The notes under the pieces: generated by a model
The model's database searches: none
Told to the model about the DNA's origin: nothing
The model's input: the letters and a program-made list of their open reading frames with translations, nothing else
In this document: positions 8,613-15,362 of the stretch, in pieces
Layout: every line of letters begins with the position of its first letter
How positions within the stretch are numbered: the stretch's first letter is position 1
Translations under genes and position numbers: made by a program
Source: Candidatus Woesearchaeota archaeon
Lineage (GTDB): Archaea; Nanobdellota; Nanobdellia; Woesearchaeales; JABIAG01
Direction of reading: 5' to 3'
NCBI GenBank assembly: GCA_018653365.1
Contig: JABIAG010000003.1
Coordinates: forward strand, 1-64,000
Length of the DNA stretch: 64,000 bases

Positions 8613-9683
8613 ATGGATCCTAGAATTAAAGAGTTGGCAAGAATTTTAACTGATTATTCTATTAAAATCAAGAAAGGGGATAAGATCGTTCTCTCCTTTG
8701 ATGCTGAAGCAAAAGCATTGGGTTTAGAATGTTATAAAAATATTTTAAAAAAAGGGGCGTTTCCTGTTGTTCATGTCGGACTTCCTGGTTTTGGTTACGC
8801 TTATTACTCTCTTGCTTCTGACGAACAACTAAAGTCCTTTCCTGAATTGGCAATGCATGAAGTTAAAAGTTGTCAGGGACATATAGGGATTGGTGCAGAA
8901 TATAATACTAAAGAATTTTCTAATGTGGATCCTAAGAAGTTCGCTTTAAGAAGTAAGGCAACTCAGAAAGTGTCTGATTTTGCGGTTAATCAAAATAATT
9001 GGGTGGGTACAGAAATTCCAACTCAAGCATTAGCTCAAGATGCAGAAATGTCTTTGGAGGAGTTTGAAGATTTTGTTTATTCTGCTACTAATGTTGATTG
9101 GGCTGAAGAGTCAAAAAAACAAGATAAGCTTAAGGCAGTTTTAGATAAGGGTGAACAAGTTCATATTATTGGTGAGAATACTGATTTAACTTTTAGCATT
9201 AAGGGCCGTCAAGGCATTAAGTGTGATGGTAAAAGAAATATGCCTGATGGTGAGGTTTTTATTGCACCTGTTGATGATTCTGCTGAAGGACACATTGAAT
9301 ATTCTTTTCCAATAATCAGAGGTGGAAGAGAGGTTCAGGGTGTTAAGTTGGAGTTTAAGAAAGGAAAAGTAGTAAAGGCTACAGCTGAGAAGAATGAAGC
9401 TTTCCTTAAGGAAATGCTTGAAACTGATGAAGGTGCTAAACGTCTTGGCGAATTTGGTATTGGTCTTAATTTTGGTATTACAAAGTTCATTAAACAGATT
9501 CTTTTTGATGAAAAGATTGGTGGAACTATTCATTTGGCTCTTGGACGAGCATATAAAGAGGGTGGCGGTAAGAATGAGTCTGCTATTCATTGGGATATGA
9601 TTAAAGACTTAAGAACTACTGGAAAATTCTTAATTGATGGTAAAGTTATTATGGAAAAGGGCGAGTTTAAAATAGAATTATAA
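8613..9683 (+). CDS. M29-family (thermophilic type) aminopeptidase
   Basis: This 356-aa protein is a probable dinuclear-metal aminopeptidase of peptidase family M29 (AmpS/PepT type), acting in the cytoplasm on peptides such as proteasome products. Supporting segments in family order: CDGKRNMPDGEVFIAP near 205-220, EFGIGLNFGI near 280, GGTIHLALGRAYKEGG near 303-318, and SAIHWDMIKDLR near 323-334, which carry the acidic and histidine ligands. Length is close to the usual 360-410 aa. It sits divergent to pan, a functionally sensible pairing. It meets the minus-strand membrane-protein gene tail to tail with 1 bp between. Confidence 0.9.
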   Translation: MDPRIKELARILTDYSIKIKKGDKIVLSFDAEAKALGLECYKNILKKGAFPVVHVGLPGFGYAYYSLASDEQLKSFPELAMHEVKSCQGHIGIGAEYNTKEFSNVDPKKFALRSKATQKVSDFAVNQNNWVGTEIPTQALAQDAEMSLEEFEDFVYSATNVDWAEESKKQDKLKAVLDKGEQVHIIGENTDLTFSIKGRQGIKCDGKRNMPDGEVFIAPVDDSAEGHIEYSFPIIRGGREVQGVKLEFKKGKVVKATAEKNEAFLKEMLETDEGAKRLGEFGIGLNFGITKFIKQILFDEKIGGTIHLALGRAYKEGGGKNESAIHWDMIKDLRTTGKFLIDGKVIMEKGEFKIEL

Positions 9684-9684
9684 T

Positions 9685-10299
9685 TTATTTTTTGCGTTTT
9701 TTTCTTTTATTGTTATCTAAAAAGTAACCTGTTCTAAATTTTCTAAATAGCATGTAAATTCCAATTCCTAGTAATCCACCAATTACGTTGTTGAGCATGT
9801 CTTTTTGTGTGTCCCATTCGTCTGCATCTCCTGCTCCGATAAACAGTACTCCCTCTCCCTCTCCTAATGCTAGTGCACCACCATATTCAAATAGTTCGTG
9901 AAATGCGGACAGTCCTAACATTACCACTAGTACAACAACAAATATTGATATGCAGTCTCTGTATTTTTTTCTGTGGTGTATTGCTTTTAGTATTATGAAT
10001 GCGGACATAAATCCAAAGAAGCCATGCACCCAGTAATCGTATTCTATTCCTAGGGGAAATAATTCGTAGAATCCAAAGAATCCAAAAAAGTGTAATAATA
10101 AGAATATGCCTGCCATTATGTAATGTGCTGGTTGTAGGTCTATTTTTTTTCTTAGTAAATAAACGCCAACTAGTAAACCAACGACAAATATAAAATCATA
10201 TTTGTAATGTGAACTTGTTTTAATTGCAAGAATTTCAATTATTATTAATGGAATTAGTGTGATTAACATTATCCACTTGTTTGCTTTATCTTTATCCAT
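9685..10299 (-). CDS. Polytopic membrane protein, DUF2238-like
   Basis: 204 aa with about six hydrophobic segments and a basic tail (KKRKK). Motifs recalling the DUF2238/YjdF family are EYDYWVHGFFGF near 85, FHELFEYGGA near 134, and WDTQKDMLNN near 162 followed by a Gly-rich final helix. Family members are integral membrane proteins without a settled function. The conserved His/Glu/Asp positions could bind metal, but that is a guess. It follows the M24 peptidase gene on the same strand with a 31-bp gap, so co-transcription is possible. Confidence 0.7.
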   Translation of the reverse strand: MDKDKANKWIMLITLIPLIIIEILAIKTSSHYKYDFIFVVGLLVGVYLLRKKIDLQPAHYIMAGIFLLLHFFGFFGFYELFPLGIEYDYWVHGFFGFMSAFIILKAIHHRKKYRDCISIFVVVLVVMLGLSAFHELFEYGGALALGEGEGVLFIGAGDADEWDTQKDMLNNVIGGLLGIGIYMLFRKFRTGYFLDNNKRKKRKK

Positions 10300-10330
10300 T
10301 TTAATTTATTTTTTTTATTATTTAAAAATG

Positions 10331-10960
10331 TTAAGATTTTGGTATTATTTTCAATTCTCTGCTTAAATTTGTTACCACTCCCTCGCCCACTACTACGTCA
10401 TCCTCTATTCTTATTCCCCATTTACCTTTTTTATATAGTCCGGGTTCTATTGTGATCACCTCTCCTTTCTTTAGATGAGTGTTCATTTTTGCATGAACTA
10501 CATCACTTAATCCATGTCCTAACAGGTGTATGAATAATTTGTTCTTATTTCCTAATCTTTTTCTAAATGCACGTTCAATATAGCGGGGTTTAGCATTGAT
10601 TTTAACCTGACGTAACATTTTATAATGCTCTCTTAACAGGTATGCATACAAATCTTTTTCTTCTTGCGAGGGTGTTCCAATATATACTGTTCGGGTTACA
10701 TCACTACAAATTCCGTCATGCTTTATTCCAAAGTCTATTACACAAAACCCTTTTTCAAGCGGTCCGTTTTCAAAATAATGGGGGTTGGCAGCATTCTTTC
10801 CTGATGCAACAACAGTTGTAAAGGCCAATTCAAACCCTCTTTCTAAGAATTCTTTAACCTCTTTCTCTGTTTTAAACGTTTCAAACCTCTCAATACAGGC
10901 TTTCATCCTTTCACAGGTTAATTCACATGCTTTTTTGATATTTTCATTCATCTGTACCAT
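10331..10960 (-). CDS. M24-family metallopeptidase, catalytic domain only (Xaa-Pro aminopeptidase-like)
   Basis: The pita-bread fold ligand set is complete and in order: D76 (VIDFG), D87 (SDVTRT), H149 (LLGHGL), E172 (TIEPG) and E186 (IRIEDD). At 209 aa it lacks the N-terminal creatinase-like domain of prolidases, and its spacing is unlike methionine aminopeptidase. It is probably a cytoplasmic di- or aminopeptidase for X-Pro bonds. TATA-like elements at about 10975-10982 and 10990-10997 precede it. The ATG at codon 4 (10951) is an alternative start. Confidence 0.85.
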   Translation of the reverse strand: MVQMNENIKKACELTCERMKACIERFETFKTEKEVKEFLERGFELAFTTVVASGKNAANPHYFENGPLEKGFCVIDFGIKHDGICSDVTRTVYIGTPSQEEKDLYAYLLREHYKMLRQVKINAKPRYIERAFRKRLGNKNKLFIHLLGHGLSDVVHAKMNTHLKKGEVITIEPGLYKKGKWGIRIEDDVVVGEGVVTNLSRELKIIPKS

Positions 10961-11043
10961 GAAAATGGTTTTGTTTATATAATTTCTTTATATATACTCG
11001 AAAAACGATAGATTTAAATATTCTCGAGTTTTTATTATTCTCT

Positions 11044-11304
11044 ATGGAAGAAGACAAAAACTTTTCAAAAGAGATTATTGGTAAAACAGTTGTATCTAAA
11101 AATGGTAAGACTTATGGTAATGTTGCTGATGTTGAGTTTGAGACTCGTTCTGGGGAACTAATTCATATCATTTTGAAGAGTCCTACTGCTAATGCTGAAA
11201 AGTTAGAACTTGAGAAAGATGGCAATGGTAGTCTAAAGATTCCTTTTTCTGCAGTTATAGCAATTGGTGATTTCTTAGTTATTGCTGAAGAAGACATTGT
11301 TTAA
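11044..11304 (+). CDS. PRC-barrel domain protein, 86 aa
   Basis: A single small beta-barrel: KEIIGKTVVSKNGKTYGNV, then the strand-turn pattern and a closing SAVIAIGDFLVI. Archaeal stand-alone PRC-barrel proteins include the CdpB-type factors linking FtsZ and SepF in cell division. Which role this one has cannot be told from sequence. A TATA element at 11014-11021 lies about 26 bp from the ATG, giving a leaderless mRNA. The last seven codons are duplicated 97 bp downstream. A second PRC-barrel gene lies at 50880. Confidence 0.8.
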   Translation: MEEDKNFSKEIIGKTVVSKNGKTYGNVADVEFETRSGELIHIILKSPTANAEKLELEKDGNGSLKIPFSAVIAIGDFLVIAEEDIV

Positions 11305-11401
11305 ATTATAATTATTCTTTTTTTGGGCTGTTTGAACGTAGTGAGAATAGTCCTTCGTTTGGCATTGGCGAAAGAATGCTGCTGAAGAAGACATTGTTTA
11401 A
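11284..11401 (+). repeat. Duplicated gene tail A: PRC-barrel 3' end, spacer, second copy of the 3' end
   Basis: The last 21 nt of the PRC-barrel gene, stop included (11284-11304), recur exactly at 11381-11401. The 76-bp spacer starts T-rich (probable transcription terminator, about 11313-11323). It then holds a core GTTTGAACGTAGTGAGAA at 11329-11346, which recurs almost unchanged in the spacer of duplication B. The second copy is not attached to a reading frame and ends 10 bp before the rfcS TATA box. Confidence 0.85.
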
Positions 11402-11410
11402 GATAACAAT

Positions 11411-11421
11411 CTTTTTATAAC
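11411..11421 (+). promoter_or_regulatory. rfcS promoter TATA box
   Basis: CTTTTTATAAC is centred about 26 bp before the rfcS ATG at 11442, so the transcript should be leaderless. It lies immediately after the second copy of the upstream gene's tail. Confidence 0.6.
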
Positions 11422-11441
11422 ACTTCTTTATACTATTAAAT

Positions 11442-12395
11442 ATGGAACATTCTATCTGGATAGAAAAATACCGTCCTAAATCTTTTGAAGAGATCAAGGG
11501 GCAGATTGAGATAATTAAACGAATTAAGGCATTAGTTGAAAAACAAAATCTTCCTCATTTATTATTTACTGGTCCTGCAGGTGTTGGTAAGACTACTCTT
11601 GCGGTGGTTATAGCTAAACAATTATTCAAAGACACCTGGAGAGAGAACTTTTTAGAACTTAATGCTTCTGATGAACGAGGTATTGATATTATTCGAAATA
11701 AGGTTAAGGACTTCGCCAGGACCAAGGCTATTGGTGATGTACCGTTTAAAGTTATATATTTGGATGAGTCTGATGCCCTAACTAAAGAGGCTCAGCAAGC
11801 ACTTAGGCGTACGATGGAGAATTACACTCAGAACTGTAGATTCATCTTAGCAGCTAATTATTCTTCTAAAATTATTGATCCTATTCAGTCTAGATGTGCT
11901 GCTTTTCGTTTCAAACCTCTTGAAAAGGAGGAAATTGTCAAACTGATTGATGTTATTGTTGAAAAGGAGTCTTTAACAATTGATGATAAAGCAAAAGAAG
12001 CATTATTTCAGATTAGTCATGGTGATTGTAGAAAGTTGGAAAACACGCTTCAAAGTTGTGCTTCTATTTCTAATAACCTTACTGAAGAGAATGTCTTCAG
12101 CTTAGCATCTTTTGCTAAACCTGAAGAGTTGAAAACTGCCCTAGAACTTGCATTAAAACAGGATTTTGAGGCTGCTCGTAACGAATTATTGAAGACTATG
12201 TTGAAGTATGGTTTGTCTGGTACTGATGTTATTAAGCAGATTCAGCAAGAGATTTGGAATCTTGATATTGAGGATAAGTCTAAAGTTCAGTTAATTGATA
12301 AGTGTGGCGAGATAGAGTTCAGAATGGTTGAGGGTAGTGATGAGTTTATTCAGTTGGAAGCGTTACTGGCTCAGATTATGATTTCTAAATCTTAG
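11442..12395 (+). CDS. rfcS: Replication factor C small subunit
   Basis: Clamp-loader ATPase that opens PCNA and loads it on primed DNA. Visible: RFC box, Walker A GPAGVGKT at 44-51, Walker B YLDESDA at 106-112 (family consensus DEAD; here Ser replaces Ala), sensor 1 LAANYSS near 137-142, SRC arginine-finger motif at 150-152, and the C-terminal collar helices. At 317 aa it matches archaeal small subunits. Its partners PCNA (52022) and the fused primase (43844) are elsewhere in the window; no large subunit is present. The last 71 nt are duplicated downstream with synonymous changes. Confidence 0.95.
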   Translation: MEHSIWIEKYRPKSFEEIKGQIEIIKRIKALVEKQNLPHLLFTGPAGVGKTTLAVVIAKQLFKDTWRENFLELNASDERGIDIIRNKVKDFARTKAIGDVPFKVIYLDESDALTKEAQQALRRTMENYTQNCRFILAANYSSKIIDPIQSRCAAFRFKPLEKEEIVKLIDVIVEKESLTIDDKAKEALFQISHGDCRKLENTLQSCASISNNLTEENVFSLASFAKPEELKTALELALKQDFEAARNELLKTMLKYGLSGTDVIKQIQQEIWNLDIEDKSKVQLIDKCGEIEFRMVEGSDEFIQLEALLAQIMISKS

Positions 12396-12516
12396 GTTGT
12401 TCGAACGTTAGTGAGAACTGATGTTGCGCGAGAACATTTTCTCGCTGGTTGAGGGTAGTGATGAGTTTATTCAGTTAGAGGCGTTACTTGCTCAGATTAT
12501 GATTTCTAAGAATTAA
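12325..12516 (+). repeat. Duplicated gene tail B: rfcS 3' end, 50-bp spacer, second copy of the 3' end
   Basis: The last 71 nt of rfcS (12325-12395) recur at 12446-12516 with the reading frame and a stop preserved. Differences in the shared LEALLA...ISK part are synonymous (TTG/TTA, GAA/GAG, CTG/CTT, AAA/AAG). Only the last residue differs, Ser before TAG against Asn before TAA. The spacer holds GTTCGAACGTTAGTGAGAA (12398-12416), matching the duplication-A core, and a hairpin with 7-bp arms GCGAGAA/TTCTCGC (12429-12445). The second copy has no start codon and is a silent tail. Confidence 0.9.
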
Positions 12517-12543
12517 TTTAAAAAAATAAAAAAAAATAAATGT

Positions 12544-13452
12544 TTATTCTGTGTGTTTTACCATTAACGTTGTTGATATGTCGTCACTTACTGCGTAAGT
12601 TAGGTCAATGGTTATTGCTTTTTCATAGTCTGTTGCAGAGTCAATTTCTACATTACATCTAATTGTTTTGGTTCCGTCTTGTAGGTTTACATATCCTTCA
12701 CTGTCGGTTCCTTGACAGGTGATGCCCTCTATTCCTGCTACTTCTACCTTTACTTTGTTTTCTACGCTTCGTGTGCCTTCACAGCTCACACCCTCTTTGT
12801 ATATTTTACTTACACTTCCTTGGTTTGCGATTACAAAGTCAAATTCAAGTTTGTTTTGTCCTGCAGCTCTTTCTGTTAAGGAGGTTACCTGAATTGGTGC
12901 TCCTGAACTGAATACCTCTTTTACTGCTCCAACAGTACATACTCTGCTGTTGTCTTTTAGAATGTCTTTTACTACACACAAGTCTGCTACTGCTTTTGTT
13001 GCGTATTCGTAGCACATGCTTGCAATTATTGGTCTTTCTATTGCAGCTCCAACAATTGTTCCATCATAACTTAGTTCTTCTATTGATACTTCTGTTTGTC
13101 CACCATCTACTAATCCTGCAGCATCTTTTGATGCTCCCATTAGATCTCCGGTTGGTTCTAAAACAAAGTCTGTATCGCTTAATCCGAATTCTTCAGGGTC
13201 TATCCCTTTGATTGTTACTTCAACATCTTCTTTTGCTACATCTGTTTCTCCTACATTTTCTAGTTCTACTACTAATTCAAATGGGAAATTACCATTATCA
13301 AATACTTCTGCGGGGGGTGCGTCTGCTAAAAATGCCATTCTCACTCCTGTAGTTCCACCAACAAAGGGGTTAACTTTGCCAGTTTCTTCTTTTTGACAGC
13401 CCATTAACATGATCGTCATTACAACCAATAAAGCTAAAATTATTTTTTTCAT
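12544..13452 (-). CDS. Envelope lipoprotein paralog 1, six-cysteine Ig-like (function unknown)
   Basis: 302 aa. A lipoprotein signal ends at LMGC (Cys19), followed by beta-rich, Ig-like sequence with phrases such as VELENVGETDV. It shares with the next two genes a CYxYxTx6C motif (here CYEYATKAVADLC) followed by [GA]AP[IV]xV[TI]S (GAPIQVTS), plus three later cysteines at matching places. This suggests three disulfides outside the membrane. I do not recognise a named family. It is last in a five-gene minus-strand operon; GAGGTAA sits 7 nt before the ATG as a Shine-Dalgarno. A role in an envelope complex is inferred from context only. Confidence 0.8.
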   Translation of the reverse strand: MKKIILALLVVMTIMLMGCQKEETGKVNPFVGGTTGVRMAFLADAPPAEVFDNGNFPFELVVELENVGETDVAKEDVEVTIKGIDPEEFGLSDTDFVLEPTGDLMGASKDAAGLVDGGQTEVSIEELSYDGTIVGAAIERPIIASMCYEYATKAVADLCVVKDILKDNSRVCTVGAVKEVFSSGAPIQVTSLTERAAGQNKLEFDFVIANQGSVSKIYKEGVSCEGTRSVENKVKVEVAGIEGITCQGTDSEGYVNLQDGTKTIRCNVEIDSATDYEKAITIDLTYAVSDDISTTLMVKHTE

Positions 13453-13463
13453 TTTATATTACC

Positions 13464-14357
13464 TCATTCAATTCGTTTTATTAGTACTCTTTTTGTAATT
13501 GAGTCTTTGTAACTATATCCCAATTGTACTCCTAGTGATGTTCTGTATGCTGGTTCGTCTTCATCTAGATCTTCTCCAGTACATGTTATTGTTCCTACTC
13601 CGTTTATGATTCTTATCCATTCTGAAGGGGTACAATCTAATTCTTCATCTCCTAAATAAACTGCTAATAATTCTACTACGTCTTTGTCACTTCTTTCAGG
13701 GTTTAAGCAGTCTGTTTCTCGGAAAACACTTCCGCCGCCAACGTTTGAGATTTTTATAGTGAATCTTACTTTTTCTTTTAGAGATTCTTGTTGAATTGAG
13801 GTTACTCCAATTGGTGCTGCCTGTCCACCTAGTCCTGATGAGATTCCGGGATTGCAGGTGTCTTCATCATTTCTTGTTGGGTTTGGGTCTACGCATACAT
13901 CTATTGGTGCTAATGTTTCATAGTCATAACATGCGGTTACTCTTATATCTTGAGGTAATGAGTCTGCATCTTCATATAATCTTACGTCAAATTCTTCTTC
14001 ATAGAATGCCAATCCTCCTTCTGGGTTGGTTTGTGATTTTCTGCCCTCAATGTCTATTGAGTCATCATATGGTAAATCTATTAGATTTCTATCAAATCCG
14101 GAGAAGTATAGGTCAACATCTAAACTATCATCTTCTTCTTCAGGAAATCCCCCTCTGTTTCTTAATTCTAGTACTATAGGGTATGTTTCTCCTGCATAGA
14201 TTTCATTTGGTGGACTGTTTTGACTTAGTTCTAAGACAATCCCTTGGTTTCCTGTTTTCCAGTTTGGGTATTCTCCTTCGTTGCTGCCACCTGTACATCC
14301 TACCAATACTATTAATGTTAGAATTGCTAATATTATTATTTTGATTTTCATTTTCAT
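13464..14357 (-). CDS. Envelope lipoprotein paralog 2, six-cysteine Ig-like (function unknown)
   Basis: 297 aa with lipobox LVGC (Cys21) and an acidic, beta-rich body. The paralog signature is CYDYETLAPIDVC followed by AAPIGVTS, with later cysteines in TDCLNP, LDCTPS and ITCTGE that match the other two paralogs. ELRNRGGFPEEE marks the first Ig-like domain. It lies 75 bp after paralog 3, a gap that includes a TATA-like GTTTAAATAC (14374-14383) and a GAGG Shine-Dalgarno, so an internal promoter is possible. It is 11 bp from paralog 1. Confidence 0.8.
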   Translation of the reverse strand: MKMKIKIIILAILTLIVLVGCTGGSNEGEYPNWKTGNQGIVLELSQNSPPNEIYAGETYPIVLELRNRGGFPEEEDDSLDVDLYFSGFDRNLIDLPYDDSIDIEGRKSQTNPEGGLAFYEEEFDVRLYEDADSLPQDIRVTACYDYETLAPIDVCVDPNPTRNDEDTCNPGISSGLGGQAAPIGVTSIQQESLKEKVRFTIKISNVGGGSVFRETDCLNPERSDKDVVELLAVYLGDEELDCTPSEWIRIINGVGTITCTGEDLDEDEPAYRTSLGVQLGYSYKDSITKRVLIKRIE

Positions 14358-14432
14358 TTATTCTTCCTCTTTAGTGTATTTAAACTTTGCGATTTTTTAG
14401 GAGTAAAGTTTGAGCTTATAATCCATCAACGT

Positions 14433-15362
14433 TTATCTAGCGGGATTTTTCACTATGAACATATCTGTTGAGGTTTCATCTTTGTAGCCATAATCTAATG
14501 TCATGGTGATACTTCCTAAGTATGCTTCTTCTGAATAAGGAATTTCATTTCCTTCACAAGCTAAGGTAGTTACTTCTACATCAAAATATTCATCGCCTTC
14601 GGATCTTTGTTCTACTCTTAGTTGATTTCTTGTACATTTTAATTTATCAAAACCCAGGTATATGTTGCTTGCATCTATTAATCCTACTTCTGCAGGTTTT
14701 AGTCCTGTTGATGAACACGCATTTTCGTATGCTGTTTTGGCCATTACTGTTCCCTTTCCTACATTTTCTACCTCAAATTCAAATGTTGGAATTGCGCCTG
14801 TTTTTGTGGGCAACATTTTTGTTTCCATGGATATTACTGCTACTGGTGCTCCCTGTCCATTTCTAAATGTTCTTTTTTGTTCTGGACATTCTGCTGGTTT
14901 GTTTGTCTTTTCTCCAAGTACGTCAGGATCTATGCACACGTTTGTTGAGAAAACAGTGCTATATGGATAACAATAAACTATTTTAAACTCCGCAGGTTGT
15001 GTTTCTGCTGCAAAAATTGTTTTTGTTTGTATGTCTATTACTTTTATATCGCTATCTCCATAAGGGTTGTTTATGCTTTTGCCTTCAAGTCTAGCATAGT
15101 ATAAGTCTTCAAAGCTTTCAAACAAGCTTCGTTGGGTACTTAATACTATTTTTGCTTTATCTATGTCTGTTGCTCCTGCATTATGTGCTTCAAAACCAAT
15201 TGAGAACGGACTGTTTTCATATACTTCGTCAGGAGGCGTGTTGGGTAAGAATTCAATTACTAACCCTTCTGTGCCTTGGTGTGGATCGTATTCGTTCGAA
15301 TCATTTCTACCGCAGGCAGTAATTAAAAGTAGTCCAATTAGTATTAGTATTATTTTTTTCAT
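14433..15362 (-). CDS. Envelope lipoprotein paralog 3, six-cysteine Ig-like (function unknown)
   Basis: 309 aa with lipobox ITAC (Cys17). All three paralogs carry a comparable N-terminal phrase soon after the anchor (here VIEFLPNTPPDEVYENSPF; in paralog 1 APPAEVFDNGNFPF). The signature follows as CYPYSTVFSTNVC and GAPVAVIS. It starts 6 bp after the stop of the 670-aa membrane protein, so it is probably translated from the same mRNA. The repeated PP-x-E-[VI]-[FY] motif and conserved cysteines suggest three subunits of one assembly rather than three independent proteins. Confidence 0.8.
   Translation of the reverse strand: MKKIILILIGLLLITACGRNDSNEYDPHQGTEGLVIEFLPNTPPDEVYENSPFSIGFEAHNAGATDIDKAKIVLSTQRSLFESFEDLYYARLEGKSINNPYGDSDIKVIDIQTKTIFAAETQPAEFKIVYCYPYSTVFSTNVCIDPDVLGEKTNKPAECPEQKRTFRNGQGAPVAVISMETKMLPTKTGAIPTFEFEVENVGKGTVMAKTAYENACSSTGLKPAEVGLIDASNIYLGFDKLKCTRNQLRVEQRSEGDEYFDVEVTTLACEGNEIPYSEEAYLGSITMTLDYGYKDETSTDMFIVKNPAR

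Follow-up and report, generated by a model that had tools for sequence, protein, structure and literature searches.

In the window (a stretch of 64,000 nucleotides of Candidatus Woesearchaeota archaeon DNA), a PRC-barrel domain gene and the gene for the small subunit of replication factor C (rfcS) adjoin each other, and each carries a duplicated 3′ end, as a sequence-only reading of this DNA had claimed. In both cases, the tail attached to the gene (copy A) is followed by a spacer and then by a displaced second tail (copy B) (Table 1). The duplication of the PRC tail is exact, and its length is 22 nt instead of the 21 nt given in that reading; a weaker repeat continues past the tail into the 3′ UTRs (37 nt at 81%), which are diverged yet alignable. 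For rfcS, positions 12325-12388 and 12446-12509 match over 64 nt at 95%, and the two tails can be paired over 71 nt up to their stops. The rfcS tails had been described as differing almost only at synonymous sites, which holds for four changes but not for two non-synonymous ones, including the last codon (KS-stop versus KN-stop).

Table 1. Features of the PRC-barrel and rfcS loci, in positions of the window
Feature	Position	Strand	Basis or remark
PRC-barrel domain gene	11044..11304	+	ORF, 86 aa; product name taken from the sequence-only reading
PRC copy A, tail attached to the gene, including the stop (TGCTGAAGAAGACATTGTTTAA)	11283..11304	+	exact direct repeat of 11380-11401
PRC copy A 3′ UTR, T-rich	11305..11324	+	alignable with the sequence 3′ of copy B
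Hairpin H1, stem GGGCTGTTT/GAATAGTCC around GAAC-GTA-GTGA	11325..11353	+	predicted fold; covariation in relatives
Second fold, probable H-type pseudoknot	11355..11379	+	14 distinct sequences show covariation of the second helix
PRC copy B, displaced tail	11380..11401	+	begins directly behind the last base of the fold
rfcS, replication factor C small subunit, 317 aa	11442..12395	+	ORF; orthologues in 40/40 genomes searched
rfcS copy A, tail attached to the gene, including the stop (VEGSDEFIQLEALLAQIMISKS, stop)	12325..12395	+	DNA and protein tail repeat
H1-type hairpin GTTC-GAACGTTAGTGA-GAAC, holding the core	12399..12418	+	sequence; alternative folds possible
rfcS second fold	12421..12445	+	perfect hairpin GCGAGAA/TTCTCGC, or pseudoknot ATGTT:AACAT + GCGAG:CTCGC
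rfcS copy B, displaced tail including the stop (VEGSDEFIQLEALLAQIMISKN, stop)	12446..12516	+	4 synonymous and 2 non-synonymous changes versus copy A

Downstream repeats of gene tails were scanned over the whole genome (1.09 Mb, 3 contigs, 1,187 predicted genes). At the DNA level, three repeats score 41-55 and the PRC repeat scores 22, and the bulk lies at 6-12; at the protein level, six tails score at least 30, compared with 0.5 tails in mismatched pairings. The PRC and rfcS duplications are beyond chance, and they are two among several cases of a wider phenomenon. Regarding the short core sequence described earlier as common to both spacers, it is present in each (GTTTGAACGTAGTGAGAA, 11330-11347, inside hairpin H1 of the PRC spacer; GTTCGAACGTTAGTGAGAA, 12399-12417, in the rfcS spacer) but is not a unit in its own right, being the H1 loop of a multi-copy element family. 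This genome contains just two exact instances of the core, which is one version of a wider hairpin loop. In relatives, the core is found inside tRNA T-loop introns, and in bacterial and viral contigs in isolated hairpins with no tail repeats; the stand-alone core was thus rejected as the defining unit. The earlier expectation that the core lies between two copies of a gene tail holds for most copies of the fuller element. None of six variants of the core was found in a relevant paper of the open literature, which is no proof of novelty.

A dispersed double-hairpin element

The more informative unit of the PRC spacer is the fold immediately 5′ of copy B (TCGYTT...GGCGAAAG...). It belongs to a dispersed element of about 50 bp, devoid of ORFs and composed of H1 and the second fold in the order H1, TCGYTT, a stem strand, GGCGAAAG and the matching strand, of which this genome contains 10 copies (the PRC spacer and nine other places). 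The constant part was then used to search the order (338 genomes), and 25 more copies with a preserved complementary stem were found in families f39 (G038, G102, G106, G107 and G109) and f40 (G039), giving 35 copies with complementary stems in 7 genomes and 3 families, and a reversed control pattern gave 0 in most genomes and a maximum of 3. The sister genomes G105, G108 and G238 are without pattern hits. The genomes are recognized as archaeal by RfcS, L40e and tRNA features, and they probably belong to a DPANN-like lineage. The pattern TTGGCGAAAGAATG, applied to 353 genomes, failed to detect the other families owing to their different covarying stem, and a looser pattern recovered them. The class A consensus has no match in GTDB r220, and the curated covariance models of Rfam gave nothing near the gathering score over positions 9000-15000. 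Matches of the constant part in viral contigs were discarded as chance, the flanking hairpins being absent. Within 1.5-3 kb of the loci lacking a nearby repeat, no longer autonomous or enzyme-coding version was found.

The fold is conserved while its sequence varies. H1 folds in 34 of the 35 copies, mostly as a stem around GA-xy-GNA-y′x′-GA or with a four-base loop. The covariation of the helices is 0.46 and 0.59, compared with 0.21 and 0.19 after shuffling and at most 0.17 with slid partners. In the second fold, pairing is kept in 99% of the cells, and both partners are changed in 17 cells, compared with none when the partners are slid; in H1, both partners are changed in 13 cells. The pairings in the PRC copy are TCGT (11355-11358) with GCGA (11368-11371) and GCATT (11362-11366) with AATGC (11375-11379). 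As the first of these helices, TCGY:GCGA, shows no breaks and varies only from C to T, an H-type pseudoknot is probable rather than proven, in preference to a plain hairpin. The rfcS spacer and that at C3:99237 have the layout of the element with other sequences. The constant TCGYTT/GGCGAAAG part is missing from the rfcS spacer; its second fold, differing in sequence from the main family, appears to be a related, diverged form, akin to the others by position and layout only.

This genome also harbors units termed class B, in which a gene tail is followed by an inverted tail copy (left arm), a GAACGWAGTGA loop and a tail copy (right arm). They are located at C3:93638, C3:105468, C3:42144, C1:528180 and C1:592219, the loop holds GAACGWAGTGATGTTGTG, one unit lies at a tRNA 3′ end, and one is a triple tandem. 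The tail copies can be fully recoded, for example, GTATACTAA versus GTGTATTAG, both reading VY-stop. Among 145 genomes of the order, the class B pattern was found in this genome only; one class B case, FAWYAFHPTTEIYEVNN and a stop followed by AWYAFHPNTTLYEK and a stop, is present in the one-contig control genome G010 (family f11), which is therefore not a clean negative. In other relatives, including a one-contig genome, tail copies surround other hairpins. Inserts of about 44 nt ending in CTTCGAACGTCAGTGAGAA were observed in tRNA T-loops at four loci (L010 and L013 in G015, L011 in G008 and L012 in G010). They contain the H1 core and occupy the T-loop region used by the element in G039; perhaps they are similar insertions minus the restoring copy, retained as introns. 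An apparent tRNA gene at C3:102851 of this genome has an intron with an H1-like hairpin (GTTCTGAACGTAAGTGAAGAT).

Paired gene ends around the element

A direct repeat surrounds the element in 22 of the 33 testable copies (score of at least 10), compared with 0.5% of mismatched pairings, and in most copies it starts at the first base after the fold, so that the junction between fold and copy B is fixed. In several related archaea, the element is located between two diverged copies of a gene end, and the gene stays intact because the element stands between them. The repeats vary between sites in length (9-94 nt) and in the place of identity, and the inserts between the copies (about 50-190 bp) contain no homing endonuclease ORF. 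A process acting on gene 3′ ends, as proposed in the sequence-only reading, is borne out except for the restriction to 3′ ends, since the repeats cover not only the 3′ ends of protein genes but also the 5′ end of msrA (G102) and tRNA 3′ halves (G039), where they span the T-loop to the 3′ end plus the trailer. Two copies, at msrA of G102 and at the L40e gene of this genome, have an antisense orientation relative to the gene.

Some copies have further peculiarities. At five loci of G039 (L188, L197, L198, L202 and L203), the target is a common repeated RNA-like sequence of about 110 nt (CCATTAGCTATGCAAAGGAAAAGAAAGGATTAGAA...), which might itself be a dispersed element that carries the double hairpin. 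At L169 and L237 of G107, in the interval between rps17 and the next gene, the element and copy B read in frame as MSKITMSVRLHEVNVVPDLASQLAKEL-MKTFVIVEKQ-stop; QLAKEL is kept in several f39/f40 variants and does not occur in this genome. The in-frame reading in G107 is probably a by-product of the paired stem.

The paired ends differ mainly synonymously. Over 17 coding pairs, there are 36 synonymous and 15 non-synonymous differences (dN/dS 0.085), a signal carried by the longer pairs, as the very short ones were partly picked for similarity. A model with one neutral copy expects 69% non-synonymous differences and is rejected at about 1e-8. Among the longer pairs, the ratio of synonymous to non-synonymous differences is 8 to 0 for msrA, 8.5 to 2.5 for the TldD-like gene of G038 and 4 to 2 for rfcS of the window. 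Therefore, both copies have served as coding ends, and, judged from their substitutions, they behave like orthologous gene ends.

Empty sites in the same genus bear on which of the two ends is native. At the HAD gene of G107, the empty orthologues in G106 and G108 match copy B and its flank, whereas copy A does not match them; over the right 21 nt, the identity to G106 is 90% for copy B and 71% for copy A. This one locus, which provides the clear native-end evidence, indicates that copy B with its flank is native and that the gene-attached copy A is divergent. Together with the dN/dS of 0.085, it supports the earlier proposal that a diverged homologous allele supplied a replacement tail while the older one stayed in place downstream. 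In rfcS of G038, two extra tail copies with a different hairpin spacer start within a few codons of the site used in the window, and this is the sole rfcS with tail copies among the 29 relatives inspected there. The left half of its gene-attached copy is 88% identical to the sister G105, compared with 79% and 76% for the downstream copies. The HAD and G038 rfcS patterns fit a crossover inside the shared gene end. At rps17, G107 has the insertion, flanked by identical repeats, whereas the site is empty in G106 and G108, and the insertion is therefore recent. In G009, G012 and G018, the matches to rfcS are split within very long reading frames (852-963 aa), a pattern that would agree with inteins.

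Proposed mechanism and alternatives

With a probability of roughly 0.55, we favor the interpretation that a gene-less mobile double hairpin enters genes and brings along a gene end that displaces the old one. The element would insert close to one end of a gene, or into the T-loop of a tRNA gene, and supply a homologous gene end (copy A) that often derives from a diverged relative; this end would complete the gene, and the resident end (copy B) would be displaced to just past the fold. The insertion is presumably Campbell-like, in that a small circle or an equivalent segment consisting of the gene end and the element would recombine by a crossover inside the shared gene end, leaving the left part of A and the right part of B native and the remainder derived from the incomer. 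Mobilization would presumably occur in trans. Several points count against this interpretation: the native end is clear at one locus only, 11 of the 33 testable copies are without a clear repeat, no longer enzyme-coding version was found within 1.5-3 kb of the loci, the sites do not all share an identical crossover core, the very short class B pair at C3:105468 (VY-stop) has no identical stretch for a crossover, and the rfcS spacer of the window is without the constant part of the family.

The main rival is a transposition in which the element (about 50 bp) creates a long target-site duplication of variable size (10-95 bp); the surviving insertions would be those whose duplication covers the gene end, and later recombination with diverged empty alleles would add the synonymous differences to one copy. 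We regard this as possible, at clearly lower odds than the replacement of gene ends. It explains the identical pairs (35 nt at rps17, 22 nt at PRC and 46 nt at C3:99237) and agrees with the fold end as a fixed boundary and with the occurrence of the element in both orientations. It does not explain the coding constraint on both copies, one of which would decay in a plain duplicate, or the HAD gene of G107, where the functional copy is the more diverged one. In addition, a search for an RVT_1 reverse transcriptase, with positive controls included, gave no match in this genome, which counts against the rival and led to the rejection of a reverse-transcribed element (TPRT, group II intron or DGR).

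Attachment scars of a tyrosine recombinase are an unlikely explanation. Copies A and B would then be attL and attR, as in tRNA islands, and the 50-bp element a mobilized or deleted remnant. tRNA T-loops and gene ends are classic integrase sites, and both are among the targets. No integrase had been noticed in the sequence-only reading; the genome does encode three tyrosine recombinases, one beside a related hairpin (C3:105486), but none lies inside the inserts and no link between them and the element is apparent. XerA-like enzymes are general in archaea, which weakens this argument. Furthermore, no sequence is common to the A and B copies of different loci, the length and the position of identity of the repeats differ by site, and no island or cargo is left.

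It is still less probable that the element acts in RNA, as a spliced intron, in translational bypass or as a guide RNA with copy B as the guide. The covarying fold, the coding constraint on both ends and the presence of the H1 core in tRNA T-loop introns of other families would agree with such a role. However, the gene is complete without splicing, and the two antisense copies make cis splicing or bypass unlikely; an archaeal intron of the bulge-helix-bulge type was rejected on the same grounds. In rfcS, PRC and C3:99237, the first 20-31 nt of copy B are identical to copy A, which speaks against a guide RNA and against a guide element of the TnpB/IscB type. Finally, an assembly artefact or strain mixing, from which diverged tandem ends can arise and which might be suspected as most searched genomes are in many contigs and probably metagenomic, is rejected, in agreement with the sequence-only reading, because one fold with compensatory changes in its helices and one identical junction recur at many places and in other genomes, with a related case in the one-contig genome G010.

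Known systems and significance

The closest known system, by analogy, is the mobile ORFs of fungal mitochondria that replace the C-terminus of a gene, as in atp6 of Allomyces and atp6, atp9, cox2 and nad3 of Glomus (PMC3630166). In these cases, the inserted diverged end completes the gene and the displaced native end downstream matches the sister species (PMC3630166). A diverged inserted end and a displaced native end are likewise seen here, clearly at the HAD gene of G107 and consistently with the overall dN/dS of 0.085. In contrast, the fungal inserts encode a homing endonuclease and are directed at single genes, whereas the archaeal element is a chromosomal fold of about 50 bp with no ORF, associated with many unrelated genes, a 5′ end and tRNAs.

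Mitochondrial double hairpins are short and dispersed, with a conserved fold and variable stems. To our knowledge, the duplication of gene ends with recoded copies is not a feature of these elements, and they reside in different genomes. In form, the archaeal element is like the mitochondrial double-hairpin and repetitive hairpin elements (e.g., PMC2800124) in its short dispersed copies, its two folds, its conserved fold and its variable stems. Thus, by analogy, it seems to work like the fungal ORFs and to look, in form, like the double hairpins.

As in integrative elements with attL/attR sites in tRNA genes or gene 3′ ends, the target gene is restored by the side of the element, with a partial copy displaced, and the tRNA repeats run from the T-loop to the 3′ end; unlike them, the archaeal element has no cargo or common core, no integrase lies inside its inserts, and its repeats are recoded and of variable length. 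An archaeal tRNA gene disrupted by a mobile element, with adjoining tRNA fragments and introns, is described for Caldiarchaeum (PMC3293823); that element is 1.8 kb long and has a predicted recombinase gene, in contrast to a double hairpin of about 50 bp with no ORF. The element resembles MITEs, REP and other non-autonomous repeats in being short, multi-copy, structured and without an ORF, but differs from MITEs and REP in lacking the terminal inverted repeats of a known transposase and in having long, variable, coding repeats.

Essential genes, namely rfcS, rps17, L40e and tRNAs, appear to be end-duplicated or end-replaced by a tiny gene-less element. More tentatively, these could be protein-free archaeal mobile elements, in which the moving form is a circle of about 100-200 nt made of the structured module and a captured gene end, and in which homology directs integration into the corresponding gene of another species; if so, the ends of housekeeping genes and tRNAs would be exchanged between species. 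If the replacement of gene ends is true, a prokaryotic chromosome would use the end-replacement trick of fungal mitochondria without an endonuclease, which would account for short recoded gene-tail repeats and displaced tRNA 3′ halves. It would also offer a testable route to T-loop interruptions in tRNA genes and a natural marker of gene exchange between species.
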